Shown: piece after piece, positions 2,795-64,000 of the stretch
Layout of the letters: each line of letters starts with the position of its first letter
How positions within the stretch are numbered: the first letter of the stretch is position 1
Source of the DNA: Billgrantia tianxiuensis
Lineage (GTDB): Bacteria > Pseudomonadota > Gammaproteobacteria > Pseudomonadales > Halomonadaceae
NCBI RefSeq assembly: GCF_009834345.1
Contig: NZ_CP035042.1
Span: forward strand, 1,674,001 to 1,738,000
Direction: 5' to 3'
DNA: 64,000 nucleotides
Position numbers and translations under genes: made by a program
The notes under the pieces: generated by a model
Database searches by the model: none
Told to the model about the DNA's origin: nothing
The model's input: only the letters and a program-made list of their open reading frames with translations

Positions 2795-3997
2795 ATGATC
2801 ACCGTCCGTTCTCGCGCCTGGTGGCGCGCTACCCTGGCGCTCTGCCTGGGCTCTATCCTGGTTTTCGTCAATCTGTATGCACCGCAGCCGCTGCTGCCGG
2901 AGCTGCGTCAGCTCTATGGCGTGTCGACCCTGGGTGTCAGCCTGGTCATGTCGGTGGCCACGCTCGCTCTGGCGGGGGCACTGCTGGTCTTCGGCCCGCT
3001 GTCGGATGCCATCGGGCGCGGCGGCATCATGCGCGTGACACTGCTCCTGACCGGGCTGTGTTCGCTGGGGCTGGCCTTGGCGCCCAGCTTCGAGACTCTG
3101 TTGGCGCTTCGCCTGGTCCAGGGCTTCGTGCTCGGCGGGCTGCCGGCGGTTGCCATTGCCTGGATGGGCGATGAGTTCGACCGACCGGCGTTGCTGGCGG
3201 CGGTGGGCCTGTATATCGGCGCCAATACCCTGGGTGGGATCGGTGGGCGACTGATCGGCGGGGGCGTCGGCGAGATCGGCGGCGCCGGCGCTGGTTTCCT
3301 GACGGTGGGCATGGTGACCCTGGCCGGGGTGGCGCTGTTCTGGAAGCTGCTGCCAGCACCTCGCCAGTTCAAGCCGCGTCGTTTCGAGCTGCGTGCCGCC
3401 GTGACGGACCTGGGCGGGCACTTGCGCCATCCGCTGCTGCTGGCCGCCTACCTGCTCGGTGGTATCAATTTCCTCATTTTCATCAACCAGTACAGCTATA
3501 TTACCTTCCGCCTGGCCGAAGCTCCTTTCGATCTCAGTGCCCGCTGGCTGGGAATGATCTTTCTCACCTACCTGGGTGGCACCCTGAGTTCGGCGCTCTC
3601 CGGTCGCCTGACCCGCCACTTCAGCCAGCCAGCCTGCATGACGCTTGGCATCCTCATCCTGATGGGCGGTACCTTCGTCACCCTGGTGGATTCCCTGGCC
3701 TGGATCATCGCCGGGCTGACCATCAATGCGGTGGGGTTCTTCCTGGCCCACTCCATGGCCTCCAGTTGGGTCAGCCGCCAGTCGGAGCGGGCGAGGGGCA
3801 GTGCCTCGGCGCTCTATCTGGTCTTCTACTATCTTGGGGCGAGCCTCGGCAGCCTCTGGCTCGAGCCGTTCTGGCAGCGTGGCGGATGGCTCGGCGTGGC
3901 CATCGGCTCCTGGCTTCTGCTCGGCGTCACACTGGGCATTGCGCTGTGGCTATGGCGCGGCGAACGAATCAGTGAACGGGTCTCACTGGCGCGCTAG
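2795..3997 (+). CDS. MFS transporter, YnfM-like drug/sugar efflux
   Basis: 400 residues with about 12 hydrophobic segments and the MFS motif A loop between the second and third helices (GPLSDAIGRGGIMR, near residue 68). The sequence resembles E. coli YnfM and related exporters in the inner membrane. Its partner is the divergent LysR regulator. The substrate is not deducible. The ribosome-binding site upstream of ATG 2795 is weak (CAGGT). The 3' end overlaps the convergent msrA by 15 bases. Confidence 0.85.
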   Translation: MITVRSRAWWRATLALCLGSILVFVNLYAPQPLLPELRQLYGVSTLGVSLVMSVATLALAGALLVFGPLSDAIGRGGIMRVTLLLTGLCSLGLALAPSFETLLALRLVQGFVLGGLPAVAIAWMGDEFDRPALLAAVGLYIGANTLGGIGGRLIGGGVGEIGGAGAGFLTVGMVTLAGVALFWKLLPAPRQFKPRRFELRAAVTDLGGHLRHPLLLAAYLLGGINFLIFINQYSYITFRLAEAPFDLSARWLGMIFLTYLGGTLSSALSGRLTRHFSQPACMTLGILILMGGTFVTLVDSLAWIIAGLTINAVGFFLAHSMASSWVSRQSERARGSASALYLVFYYLGASLGSLWLEPFWQRGGWLGVAIGSWLLLGVTLGIALWLWRGERISERVSLAR

Positions 3998-58107: not shown

Positions 58108-58183
58108 GTCCCATTCGTCTAGTGGTCCAGGACACCGCCCTTTCACGGCGGGAACAGGGGTTCGAACCCCCTATGGGACGCCA
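58108..58183 (+). tRNA. tRNA-Glu (TTC), copy 1
   Basis: 76 bases including encoded CCA. Acceptor GTCCCAT / ATGGGAC, anticodon loop CCTTTCAC with TTC, T arm AGGGG-TTCGAAC-CCCCT. Closely matches E. coli tRNA-Glu. First of a repeated Glu-Gly series. Confidence 0.97.
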
Positions 58184-58232
58184 CTCGTTTCACGCTCGTT
58201 TTCAACCGGGTACCGGAGTGCAGGACCGAAGT

Positions 58233-58307
58233 GCGGGAATAGCTCAGTGGTAGAGCATCGCCTTGCCAAGGCGAGGGTCGGGAGTTCGAATCTCCTTTCC
58301 CGCTCCA
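58233..58307 (+). tRNA. tRNA-Gly (GCC), copy 1
   Basis: 75 bases including CCA. Acceptor GCGGGAA / TTCCCGC, anticodon loop TTGCCAA with GCC, T loop TTCGAAT. Identical to the two further copies at 58541 and 58757. Confidence 0.97.
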
Positions 58308-58339
58308 AATTCTGCTTCGGCAGAATGAGCAGGTTCGGT

Positions 58340-58390
58340 GAAGGGTCGGGAGCTGGTGCGCCAGTCCGGTCGAATCACCTTCCCGCTCCA
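58340..58390 (+). repeat. Degraded tRNA-Gly 3' fragment 1
   Basis: After copy 1 of tRNA-Gly comes GGGTCGGGAGCTGGTGCGCC and then a piece ending TCGAATCACCTTCCCGCTCCA-like (T loop to CCA). It has no D or anticodon arm and cannot be a functional tRNA. A similar piece follows copy 3. Confidence 0.7.
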
Positions 58391-58407
58391 ACTTCAGCTC
58401 CAGCTGC

Positions 58408-58482
58408 GTCCCATTCGTCTAGTGGTCCAGGACACCGCCCTTTCACGGCGGGAACAGGGGTTCGAACCCCTATGGGACGCCA
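58408..58482 (+). tRNA. tRNA-Glu (TTC), copy 2, one base short in the T arm
   Basis: 75 bases including CCA. Same sequence as copy 1 except that the run of five C after TTCGAA is only four (58467-58470). This would leave a six-base T loop. Given the 12 one-base losses inferred elsewhere in the window, a sequencing error is the simplest reading. Confidence 0.93.
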
Positions 58483-58540
58483 TCTTCCGGTTGCACCCGC
58501 GATAGCGGTTGCATTGCTGATAGCATAGACTGTCGTGCAT

Positions 58541-58615
58541 GCGGGAATAGCTCAGTGGTAGAGCATCGCCTTGCCAAGGCGAGGGTCGGGAGTTCGAATC
58601 TCCTTTCCCGCTCCA
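58541..58615 (+). tRNA. tRNA-Gly (GCC), copy 2
   Basis: 75 bases including CCA, identical to copy 1. It follows tRNA-Glu copy 2 after 58 bases. Confidence 0.97.
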
Positions 58616-58635
58616 GCGCACTGTCTGGCTGCTGC

Positions 58636-58711
58636 GTCCCATTCGTCTAGTGGCCTAGGACACCGCCCTTTCACGGCGGGAACAGGGGTTCGAACCCCCT
58701 ATGGGACGCCA
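58636..58711 (+). tRNA. tRNA-Glu (TTC), copy 3, D-loop variant
   Basis: 76 bases including CCA. The D loop reads GTGGCCTAGGA instead of the GTGGTCCAGGA of copies 1 and 2; the stems are intact. Third Glu of the array. Confidence 0.97.
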
Positions 58712-58756
58712 CCTTTCGGTTATACTTGTCGAGCAGGCATGGCCGATACCGATCAA

Positions 58757-58831
58757 GCGGGAATAGCTCAGTGGTAGAGCATCGCCTTGCCAAGGCGAGG
58801 GTCGGGAGTTCGAATCTCCTTTCCCGCTCCA
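58757..58831 (+). tRNA. tRNA-Gly (GCC), copy 3
   Basis: 75 bases including CCA, identical to copies 1 and 2. Last tRNA of the array; followed by a second degraded fragment. Confidence 0.97.
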
Positions 58832-61730: not shown

Positions 61731-62291
61731 ATGGACGCACTCACCCTGTTGCATCAACGCAGTTCGATGGGCAAGTTGATGGGGCCGGCCCCCGGTCCCG
61801 AGCAGATGGAAGCGATCTATCGCGCCGCGCTGCGCGCGCCAGACCACAAGGAGCTGCGACCCTGGCGCTTCATCGAGTTCACCGGTGAAGGGCGCGAACG
61901 GCTGGGCGAGCTGTTCGCCGAGGCCGAATACCGCGAGAACCCGAGCATCGAGGATGCTGCCCTGGATGCGGCGCGCAAGAAGCCGCTGCGCGCTCCCATG
62001 ATCATCGCGGTGATCGCCAAGGTCACCCCCGACGTGCCCAAGGTACCCAAGATCGAGCAGGTGATCTCCGCCGGCTGCGCCGCCCACGGCATCATGCTGG
62101 CCGCTCATGCCCAAGGGCTAGGCGCCATGTGGCGCAGCGGCAAGTTCGCCTTCGACCCCACGGTACGCAAGGGGCTCGGGCTGGAGGAAGAGGACGAACT
62201 GATCGCCTTCATCTACCTGGGGCAGCTCGGCGGACGCCACAAGCCCATCGCCGAGCATCGTATCAGCGACTTCGTCGAACGCTGGACCTGA
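61731..62291 (+). CDS. Nitroreductase family protein (YdjA-like)
   Basis: 186 residues, short like E. coli YdjA. FMN-binding start MDALTLLHQRSSMGKLMGPA, then ALRAPDHKELRPWRFIEF, and AAHAQGLGAMWRSGKF. Probably an FMN-dependent oxidoreductase of unknown substrate. A thioesterase-like gene starts 5 bases after its stop. Confidence 0.9.
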   Translation: MDALTLLHQRSSMGKLMGPAPGPEQMEAIYRAALRAPDHKELRPWRFIEFTGEGRERLGELFAEAEYRENPSIEDAALDAARKKPLRAPMIIAVIAKVTPDVPKVPKIEQVISAGCAAHGIMLAAHAQGLGAMWRSGKFAFDPTVRKGLGLEEEDELIAFIYLGQLGGRHKPIAEHRISDFVERWT

Positions 62292-62296
62292 ATGCC

Positions 62297-62800
62297 ATGC
62301 GAGAAGTCGGCGTCCCCCACCCGCGTCTGCCGCTGCCCGAACCCGGCCAGCGCGACGAGCCGCAGGCGTTTCACACTTGGCTGGCCGAGGCCATCCCCAT
62401 GGTCGAGCACCTGGGCATTCGCGAGATGCGCTGGGAAGGGGAGAGCCTGGTGTGGGAGCTTGCCCTCGAGCCCAACCTCAACGACAAGGGCACCGGTTTC
62501 GGCGGGGCGTTGACCGCCCAGACCACCCTGCTGGGCTGGTGCTGGGTCACCCTGTGGCTGCGCGAGCGTGGCTACGCTCGCGATGTCGTCGTGGCCGAGG
62601 CCAGTCAGCGCTTCCTGGCGCCCGTCACCGGCGATTACCGCCTGACCTGCTCCGCGCAGAGTGAGCAGGGGCCTGCCACCTTGGTCGAGCGCTTGGCGAG
62701 CCGTGGGCGTGGCCGGATCAGCCTGGTGCAGCAGCTCTGGTGTGGCGACACCCCATGCCTGGAAGCCCACGGAGACTACGCTGTGCTGCCCGCTGGCTGA
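62297..62800 (+). CDS. Thioesterase-like protein (YiiD C-terminal domain family)
   Basis: 167 residues from ATG 62297. Hot-dog fold pattern of the putative thioesterase domain found at the C-terminus of E. coli YiiD: FHTWLAEAIPMVEHLGI, EPNLNDKGTGFGGALTAQTT, and ASQRFLAPVTGDYRL. There is no GNAT domain here. Co-directional with the nitroreductase. Substrate unknown. Confidence 0.85.
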   Translation: MREVGVPHPRLPLPEPGQRDEPQAFHTWLAEAIPMVEHLGIREMRWEGESLVWELALEPNLNDKGTGFGGALTAQTTLLGWCWVTLWLRERGYARDVVVAEASQRFLAPVTGDYRLTCSAQSEQGPATLVERLASRGRGRISLVQQLWCGDTPCLEAHGDYAVLPAG

Positions 62801-62906: not shown

Positions 62907-62994
62907 GGAGGGGTGTCCGAGTGGTCGAAGGAGCACGCCTGGAAAGTGTGTATGTCGAAAGGCATCGAGGGTTCGAATCCCTCCCCCTCCGCCA
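62907..62994 (+). tRNA. tRNA-Ser (GGA)
   Basis: 88 bases including CCA, with the long variable arm of class II tRNAs (TATGTCGAAAGGCATC). Acceptor GGAGGGG / CCCCTCC, anticodon loop CTGGAAA with GGA, T loop TTCGAAT. Closely matches E. coli tRNA-Ser(GGA). Confidence 0.97.
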
Positions 62995-63228: not shown

Positions 63229-63269
63229 CGTAAGCTTTTTCCTACAAATTTTGTAGTGAATCTCTTACA
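63229..63269 (+). promoter_or_regulatory. Tandem GacA/UvrY-type boxes of regulatory RNA 1
   Basis: Two 18-bp boxes of the form TGTAAG-N6-CTTACA: CGTAAG-CTTTTT-CCTACA at 63229-63246 and TGTAGT-GAATCT-CTTACA at 63252-63269, 23 bp apart. The centre of the proximal box is about 63 bp before the predicted transcript start, the distance usual for Rsm/Csr RNA promoters. A sigma-70 promoter with extended -10 TGC-CATGGT (63309-63317) is plausible downstream. Between tRNA-Ser and here (63033-63228) I see nothing. Confidence 0.75.
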
Positions 63270-63307
63270 CGGCTCTTATCCTGGGTTAAATCAAAAACCG
63301 TCTCTCT

Positions 63308-63318
63308 GTGCCATGGTG
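63308..63318 (+). promoter_or_regulatory. Conserved promoter-proximal block of regulatory RNA 1
   Basis: GTGCCATGGTG, starting 39 bp after the proximal box ends. The counterpart GTGCCATGCTG starts 40 bp after the box of the second locus. It reads as TGn plus a weak -10 (CATGGT). A GGTTAA block lies between box and this element in both loci. Confidence 0.55.
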
Positions 63319-63323
63319 CCTAT

Positions 63324-63470
63324 ATCGGGCTATGGATGGCCCTGCACGGAAGGCCGAGCGACGGAGCGCTCATACCCAGGGATGCTTGGGCAGGAGCCCA
63401 AGGTTGGTTATCCAAGGATGGGTGGAAAGAAGCGTCGATCAAAGCCCGGCCCCAGTGGTCGGGCTTTTCT
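63324..63470 (+). ncRNA. CsrB/RsmZ-family CsrA-sequestering small RNA, locus 1 (complete)
   Basis: About 147 bases with seven GGA motifs (63334, 63348, 63363, 63380, 63393, 63416, 63424). Several lie in hairpin loops: GGGC-AGGA-GCCC at 63388-63399 is perfect, and CCCA-GGGATGC-TTGGG at 63375-63390 competes with it. The end is an 11-bp stem (63441-63451 with 63457-63467, one G-U) followed by TTTTCT. The upstream GacA-type boxes and promoter block match locus 2. This is the pattern of CsrB/RsmY/RsmZ RNAs, which titrate the translational regulator CsrA/RsmA. The 5' end is estimated from box spacing. Confidence 0.78.
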
Positions 63471-63654
63471 CGTAGTAGGGGCGGTTCGCTCCGTGGCGGG
63501 GTGGCCCGCTGCACGTCAGCCCTTGTCGTTTCGATCGACTCGAGACGGTAATGCCCGATGCGAGAGATGCTAGGTCACGCGTTCTCTTGCGGGTTCGCCA
63601 AAATATCGCGTCTCATCGCACCTGACCCGGCCGCTGGTTGGGGTCTCTGTTTGT

Positions 63655-63825: not shown

Positions 63826-63867
63826 TGTAGGAATATTTCCTACATGGCTTGTCAGTTATTTCCTACA
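63826..63867 (+). promoter_or_regulatory. Tandem GacA/UvrY-type boxes of regulatory RNA 2
   Basis: TGTAGG-AATATTT-CCTACA at 63826-63844 (a near-perfect palindrome, N7) and TGTCAG-TTATTT-CCTACA at 63850-63867 (N6), 24 bp apart. This is the same two-box arrangement as in locus 1. Confidence 0.75.
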
Positions 63868-63906
63868 AGGAAGCTTATCTCAGGTTAACGGTGTTTTGCC
63901 GAAAGG

Positions 63907-63917: not shown

Positions 63918-63922
63918 ATCTC

Positions 63923-64000
63923 AAGAGCAAGGATGCTCCTGCAAGGATAGCCGAGTCAGGATGACTCATATTCCAGGGAGGTTCGGTCAGGATGACCGAA
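63923..64000 (+). ncRNA. CsrB/RsmZ-family small RNA, locus 2 (3' end outside window)
   Basis: 78 bases visible with five GGA motifs (63931, 63945, 63959, 63977, 63990). Three perfect hairpins display them: GAGCA-AGGA-TGCTC (63925-63938), GAGTC-AGGAT-GACTC (63953-63967) and TTCGGTC-AGGAT-GACCGAA (63982-64000). Stem-loops with AGGA(T) loops repeated every 20-30 bases are the hallmark of CsrB-type RNAs. The terminator must lie beyond the window edge. Confidence 0.82.

Follow-up and report, generated by a model that had tools for sequence, protein, structure and literature searches.

The window, a stretch of 64,000 nucleotides of the Billgrantia tianxiuensis genome, carries near its end two tandem genes, A1 and A2, which very probably encode GacA-activated, CsrA-sequestering small RNAs of the CsrB/RsmX/Y/Z type and would be part of a multi-copy dosage system. 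The basis for this reading is the sequence itself, a fold with compensatory changes, the positions of the promoter boxes, further copies, the csrA and gacA genes of the genome, and relatives linked to csrA; from these we infer transcription, dependence on GacA and CsrA binding for both RNAs. A1 and A2 would be additional RNAs of the known CsrA-sponge type, and what is unusual is their copy number and, in relatives, a form paired with csrA. The features of the locus are as follows, the scores of the A1 GacA-type boxes being the positions, of 12, shared with TGTAAG-N6-CTTACA.

62907..62994, + strand: tRNA-Ser(GGA), the upstream neighbour, outside the RNA system
63229..63246, + strand: A1 distal GacA-type box, CGTAAG-N6-CCTACA, 10/12, ending 75 nt upstream of A1
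63252..63269, + strand: A1 proximal GacA-type box, TGTAGT-N6-CTTACA, 10/12, ending 52 nt upstream of A1
63277..63288, + strand: A1 promoter box TATCCTGGGTTA, 9/11 against the recurring TATCNCAGGTTA, 33 nt upstream of A1
63322..63471, + strand: candidate Csr/Rsm-type sRNA A1, a covariance-model match, 5' end approximate
63327..63342, + strand: A1 hairpin H1, GGGCTATGGATGGCCC, with GGA in its loop
63356..63371, + strand: A1 hairpin H2, GAGCGACGGAGCGCTC, loop ACGGAG, absent from the single-sequence MFE structure of A1
63385..63402, + strand: A1 hairpin H3, CTTGGGC-AGGA-GCCCAAG, tetraloop AGGA
63441..63468, + strand: A1 intrinsic terminator
63826..63844, + strand: A2 distal box, TGTAGG-N7-CCTACA, one base longer
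63850..63867, + strand: A2 proximal GacA-type box, TGTCAG-N6-CCTACA, 10/12
63876..63887, + strand: A2 promoter box TATCTCAGGTTA
63919..64000, + strand, and on to genome position 1738052 (L003:1153): candidate Csr/Rsm-type sRNA A2, a model match

The initial annotation of this DNA had described seven GGA motifs in about 147 bases, a GGGC-AGGA-GCCC hairpin, an intrinsic terminator and two 18-bp GacA-type boxes, and its observation is confirmed as correct, and as understated. All seven motifs were located (63334, 63348, 63363, 63380, 63393, 63416 and 63424), three of them in the loops of H1-H3; the hairpin is H3, in its longer form, and the terminator is present. Both boxes stand, but the distance of about 63 bp given for them is that of the midpoint of the pair. 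Overlooked were hairpins H1 and H2 and the second RNA, A2, which follows A1 in tandem, extends 52 bases past the end of the window and carries the same kinds of parts. The single sequence of A2 folds into all three hairpins, with a z of -3.78 versus shuffles. A1 has the layout of a free-standing intergenic gene with a terminator of its own. A coding role was considered for three open reading frames of at least 60 aa that run across it, but none has a Pfam match at E<=0.01.

Upstream of the tRNA-Ser lies a gene for a YiiD_C-type thioesterase (window 62288-62797) with 93% identity to that of Billgrantia zhangzhouensis, its next closest relatives being from other Billgrantia and Halomonas species, which places the host in this group; a PAS-GGDEF-EAL gene (L003 1447-3441) lies downstream of A1 and A2. 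At the tRNA-Ser of five other loci (L013, L016, L017, L018 and L023, from several Billgrantia) the DNA directly 3' differs from that of the window, as if this tRNA gene served as an integration site. Elsewhere in the window, six tRNA genes, Glu(TTC) and Gly(GCC) alternating, occupy 58108-58831, and similar arrays occur in many of 24 related loci scanned, some of them cut by the locus end.

The GGA density of A1 is by itself not striking: at least seven GGA per 147 nt occur in 0.7% (+ strand) and 1.0% (- strand) of window stretches, and when the 118-nt A1 body was shuffled 5000 times with its composition kept, 214 of the shuffled sequences had at least seven. Five GGA placeable in loops closed by at least five pairs were found in none of 5000 A1 shuffles, and a box of at least 10/12 in 1.55% of random 185-nt pieces. 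By RNA folding, which the initial annotation had proposed as a check, H1-H3 can form in A1, but its MFE structure omits H2 and is only mildly better than shuffles (z of -1.46 and -1.79 in two runs); copy B4, described below, is barely better (z of -0.80). The decisive support for an RNA gene is comparative evidence.

Seven clear copies and one weak copy are present in the 5.0-Mb, single-contig genome, in three places. Copy B1, the first to be found by sequence search, lies 118 kb upstream of A1 and is 77% identical to it over the matched part; by reading the sequence around it, a run of four GGA-rich units, B1-B4, was recognized. Copy C1 was reached by a promoter-pattern search, in which the reversed pattern used as a control gave equally many hits, so that the pattern count was dropped as a statistic. 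A covariance model, R1, was built from nine sequences, namely A1, A2, B1, B4, C1 and two tandem pairs from B. ethanolica (L014) and B. aerodenitrificans (L015). Its seven matches in the genome comprised the five training members and two copies from outside the training set, C2 (125.7 bits; 6.6 kb from C1) and B3 (44 bits), with the next genome match at only 17.7 bits. B2 (L004, about 3287-3470), which is GGA-rich, longer and equipped with a terminator, reached 17.6 bits with filters off; it was counted as the weak copy and is perhaps a diverged family member. Searching 79 named loci around the thioesterase and tRNA-Ser genes by blastn with A1-B4 (E<=1e-3) reached L014 and L015 only, so the covariance model was required; R1 recovered RNAs from outside its training set, at 31-75 bits, in six of these loci (L044, L045 with two, L047, L054 with two, L062 and L077). 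In a nucleotide search of plasmids (91 records), the 20 matches listed cover only query bases 1-108, the tRNA end.

An alignment of 19 sequences showed two-sided changes in 22 of 25 base pairs, and one of 108 distinct RNAs (from 113 matches at E<=1e-8 in 70 chosen loci) in 24 of 25. In the larger alignment 94.2% of the cells were paired, and the covariation score was 0.587, compared with 0.212 after shuffling and no more than 0.117 after sliding; the 19-sequence alignment (fitted with R1) and the 113-row alignment were both fitted to the model structure, and hence lean towards it. An unfitted MAFFT alignment of nine sequences gave two-sided changes in 12 of 25 pairs and a covariation score of 0.329 versus 0.200 shuffled, while one of its five measures, further pair types, was equalled by 192 of 500 shuffles. 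GGA occupies the loops of H1, H2 and H3 in 105, 107 and 106 of the 108 RNAs; the corresponding counts for the linkers are 106, 108 and 107, and all six sites are present together in 102. Three loop and three linker sites are what a CsrA sponge is built on. The possibility that A1 is a chance run of GGA-rich DNA before a terminator, with no RNA gene, draws on the 0.7-1.0% of window stretches that match its GGA count and on its unremarkable fold when taken alone, yet these two-sided changes over 108 distinct RNAs, together with the other genome copies, leave it a negligible probability.

A second alternative accepts A2 and the other copies as functional and takes A1 for a decayed, non-functional duplicate. 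A1 is indeed longer than A2 (150 versus 134 nt), lacks H2 in its MFE structure and scores lower (95.3 versus 130.8 bits with R1, and 92.7 versus 117.6 bits with R2, a refined covariance model; A1 and A2 are in the training sets of both). Against decay, A1 has kept both GacA-type boxes, the promoter box, three GGA hairpins and the terminator, its identity to B1 is 77%, and its stem and loop types recur in a copy from a different genome (L128), all of which makes this alternative very unlikely.

Upstream regions were surveyed for the rows of the 113-row alignment, of which 108 upstreams were kept after dropping rows with less than 180 nt upstream or with a repeated upstream. Of the 87 upstreams that do not belong to genus g11, 52 had a GacA-type box of at least 9/12, versus 4.6% of random pieces, a background that contains the RNA loci themselves; such boxes mostly end at one of two distances upstream of the RNA, 50-56 or 71-79 nt, or occur at both. 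A survey of 57 loci found a box of at least 9/12 upstream in 31 and downstream in eight, two of these eight (L115 and L116) being members of tandem pairs. Many family RNAs also have a TATCNCAGGTTA box about 31-36 nt upstream, A1 and A2 having theirs at about 31-33 nt, and by reading, this box is inverted in L045 and L054. Genus g11, taken to be Vreelandella because the matches of G200 (g11) and G223 (V. titanicae) share contig positions and scores, had no GacA-type box of at least 9/12 in any of its 21 upstreams and a TATCNCAGGTTA box of at least 9/11 in 20 of them. The g11 pattern is what one would expect if the RNAs were real CsrA sponges on which a factor at the TATCNCAGGTTA box acted with GacA or in its place, a view compatible with the main reading; A1, with two GacA-type boxes at distances that recur in the 52 of 87 others, and a genome that encodes a GacA/UvrY protein, speak against it, and we regard it as rather unlikely for A1 and A2.

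Both protein partners of the proposed GacA-activated sponges are encoded in the genome, which has one csrA and a UvrY/SirA/GacA equivalog (286.1 bits versus a cut-off of 280). The latter is immediately followed by uvrC and a CDP-alcohol phosphatidyltransferase gene, the usual gacA-uvrC-pgsA order. Links to csrA by gene position come from three genomes of genus g20, in which csrA is present three times (G122 and G126) or twice (G114), and one csrA is divergent from a family RNA, at a distance of 158 (G122), 164 (G126) and 161 bp (G114). The divergent csrA-RNA regions are:

L165 2920-3451: divergent csrA-RNA region, g20 genome
L166 3519-3984: divergent csrA-RNA region, g20 genome
L167 2510-3040: divergent csrA-RNA region, g20 genome

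The linked RNAs score 66 (G122), 76 (G126) and 67 bits (G114), and between csrA and RNA lie GacA-type boxes of 12/12 in G122 (TGTAAGAAAATGCTTACA), 9/12 in G126 and 10/12 in G114, the last with a second box of 10/12. A box lies 65 nt (G122) and 68 nt (G114) before the csrA start, and a further csrA adjoining the first has one 69 nt (G122) and 68 nt (G126) before its own start. Since G122, G126 and G114 share one genus, the pairing in the three genomes may be a single event; G023, from another genus, has two csrA genes, neither near an RNA match (nearest about 18 kb). NCBIfam calls all four tested csrA products CsrA, i.e. that of B. tianxiuensis, two of G122 and one of G114. The Csr/Rsm-type reading that the initial annotation had put forward is supported by these csrA-linked relatives and by the csrA and GacA/UvrY genes of the genome, as well as by the three-hairpin, six-GGA fold with its compensatory changes, the boxes at recurring distances, and a model match on E. 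coli CsrB described below.

R2 matched 133 of 201 Halomonadaceae genomes (17 of 24 genera) at E<=0.001 and 106 (10 of 24 genera) at E<=1e-8, so that 27 of the 133 have solely matches weaker than the stricter threshold; 68 genomes, at least 20 of them from the genus of B. tianxiuensis, had no match at E<=0.001. Among 40 genomes reached from the named loci, 31 were matched. The 201-genome scan scored 16 candidates per genome, and the highest copy numbers were therefore recounted in 12 genomes, namely that of B. tianxiuensis and 11 picked for many copies, which also served for the csrA counts; with 11 of 12 chosen in this way, any link between RNA number and csrA number is biased. Three g20 genomes had the most matches in the recount, with 22, 18 and 17 at E<=0.001. 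G122, the richest examined, had 22 at E<=0.001, 20 at E<=1e-7 and 12 of at least 60 bits, and after merging of matches within 50 bases, 18 separate places at E<=1e-7. Counts for four other genomes are:

B. pellis: 10 matches of at least 60 bits, 12 at E<=0.001
Litchfieldella xinjiangensis: 9 matches of at least 60 bits, 13 at E<=0.001
B. lactosivorans: 8 matches of at least 60 bits, 10 at E<=0.001
L. anticariensis FP35: 1 match of at least 60 bits, 2 at E<=0.001

In the proposed mechanism, binding of phosphorylated GacA to the paired TGTAAG-N6-CTTACA-like boxes would activate A1 and A2, and each RNA of about 135-150 nt would then offer CsrA three GGA hairpin loops and at least three single-stranded GGA linkers, titrating several CsrA dimers away from mRNA targets. 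Seven clear copies and one weak copy, set against a single csrA, would make this an additive dosage system. A broader joint reading, to which we give about an even chance, would combine a strongly expanded sponge system in Halomonadaceae, a csrA-sponge module in one genus and a rewired input in g11. Under it, genomes would carry up to about 18 sponge genes, many in tandem arrays; an added csrA and a divergent sponge would appear to share a GacA-type box that drives both; and the sponges of g11 (Vreelandella) would have lost the GacA box and retained the other promoter box. If this were true, CsrA variants and their sponge would be produced together under GacA control, from a self-contained, duplicable regulator-sponge module. 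The divergent pairs link this RNA class to CsrA through gene neighbourhood, independently of any resemblance to known sponges, and the spread of copy numbers among the genomes, between zero and about 18, offers a natural series in which to ask why sponge genes multiply.

These RNAs form a Halomonadaceae family outside what Rfam recognises, and the covariance model detects them family-wide. At the Rfam gathering threshold the window yielded tRNAs only, and the cut-offs for Csr/Rsm RNAs were reached nowhere in the window, in both scanned loci of the same genome or in 14 further locus scans (L004 is counted in both of these sets). What did exceed a cut-off in the 14 loci was a tRNA and one guanidine-II riboswitch, the latter in two overlapping loci; in G155 this riboswitch lies between tandem Csr RNAs (L128 1836-1886; L173 3084-3134). 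The initial annotation had suggested running the Rfam models and had foreseen that they might miss the RNA, as they do: neither A1 nor A2 reaches the cut-off of the CsrB, RsmY or PrrB_RsmZ model. For RsmY (RF00195, gathering score 57) A1 scored 17.5 bits, and 19 genome matches at E<=10 all fell below the cut-off; in nine the match was confined to the 3' (terminator) end, and two lay on C2 (15.4 bits) and B2 (13.1 bits). PrrB_RsmZ (RF00166, gathering score 44) gave A2 28.6 bits and a single match, of 11.5 bits, in the genome scan; CsrB (RF00018, gathering score 71) gave the part of A2 inside the window 19.9 bits and no genome match at E<=10.

Within literature chiefly outside subscription journals, no title was found naming a Csr/Rsm-type RNA of Halomonas, Chromohalobacter or other Halomonadaceae, nor was a divergent csrA-CsrB pair found there, PMC7937890 concerning other matters in its accessible text. 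Among the accessible parts of related papers, one presents a model of CsrA from H. hydrothermalis and calls for sponge sRNAs to be taken up in later models (PMC12889724), and another mentions Halomonas just for an engineered sRNA (PMC13414033).

By size, GGA motifs in loops and linkers, terminator and GacA-type box, the A1-type RNAs resemble RsmX, RsmY and RsmZ of Pseudomonas. Those RNAs are about 110-150 nt long, with GGA in loops and linkers, a terminator and a GacA upstream activating sequence. What sets the A1-type RNAs apart is a three-hairpin, three-linker plan that recurs among them, and their higher copy number. Multiplicity and tandem arrangement have precedents, as judged from the accessible text of the sources: rsmX-1 and rsmX-2 are tandem genes in Pseudomonas, P. 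syringae has as many as seven Rsm RNAs (PMC7911923), and A. vinelandii has nine, RsmZ1-7 and RsmY1-2 (PMC7366521, table). With CsrB/CsrC of enterobacteria (RF00018) the family shares repeated CAGGA hairpins, and within a 10-kb stretch of E. coli K-12 the best R2 match was CsrB, at 25.6 bits, the three matches at E<=10 all lying within csrB; CsrB, at 369 nt, is longer than A1 and A2. Closer to B. tianxiuensis, and in the same family, is Halomonas (Litchfieldella) anticariensis FP35, in which GacS/GacA regulates quorum sensing (PMC4187203, accessible text). FP35 differs from B. tianxiuensis in having one good R2 candidate (61 bits; G228, from L046; L179:2191-2333) and one weak match (26 bits) only, and the good candidate has no GacA box of at least 9/12 in the 180 nt upstream. 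The available part of a 2020 review lists for H. anticariensis GacS-GacA, a predicted CsrA and a mimic sRNA given as 'Unknown' (PMC7366521), and the family described here would supply candidate RNAs for that link between GacS/GacA and CsrA in Halomonas.
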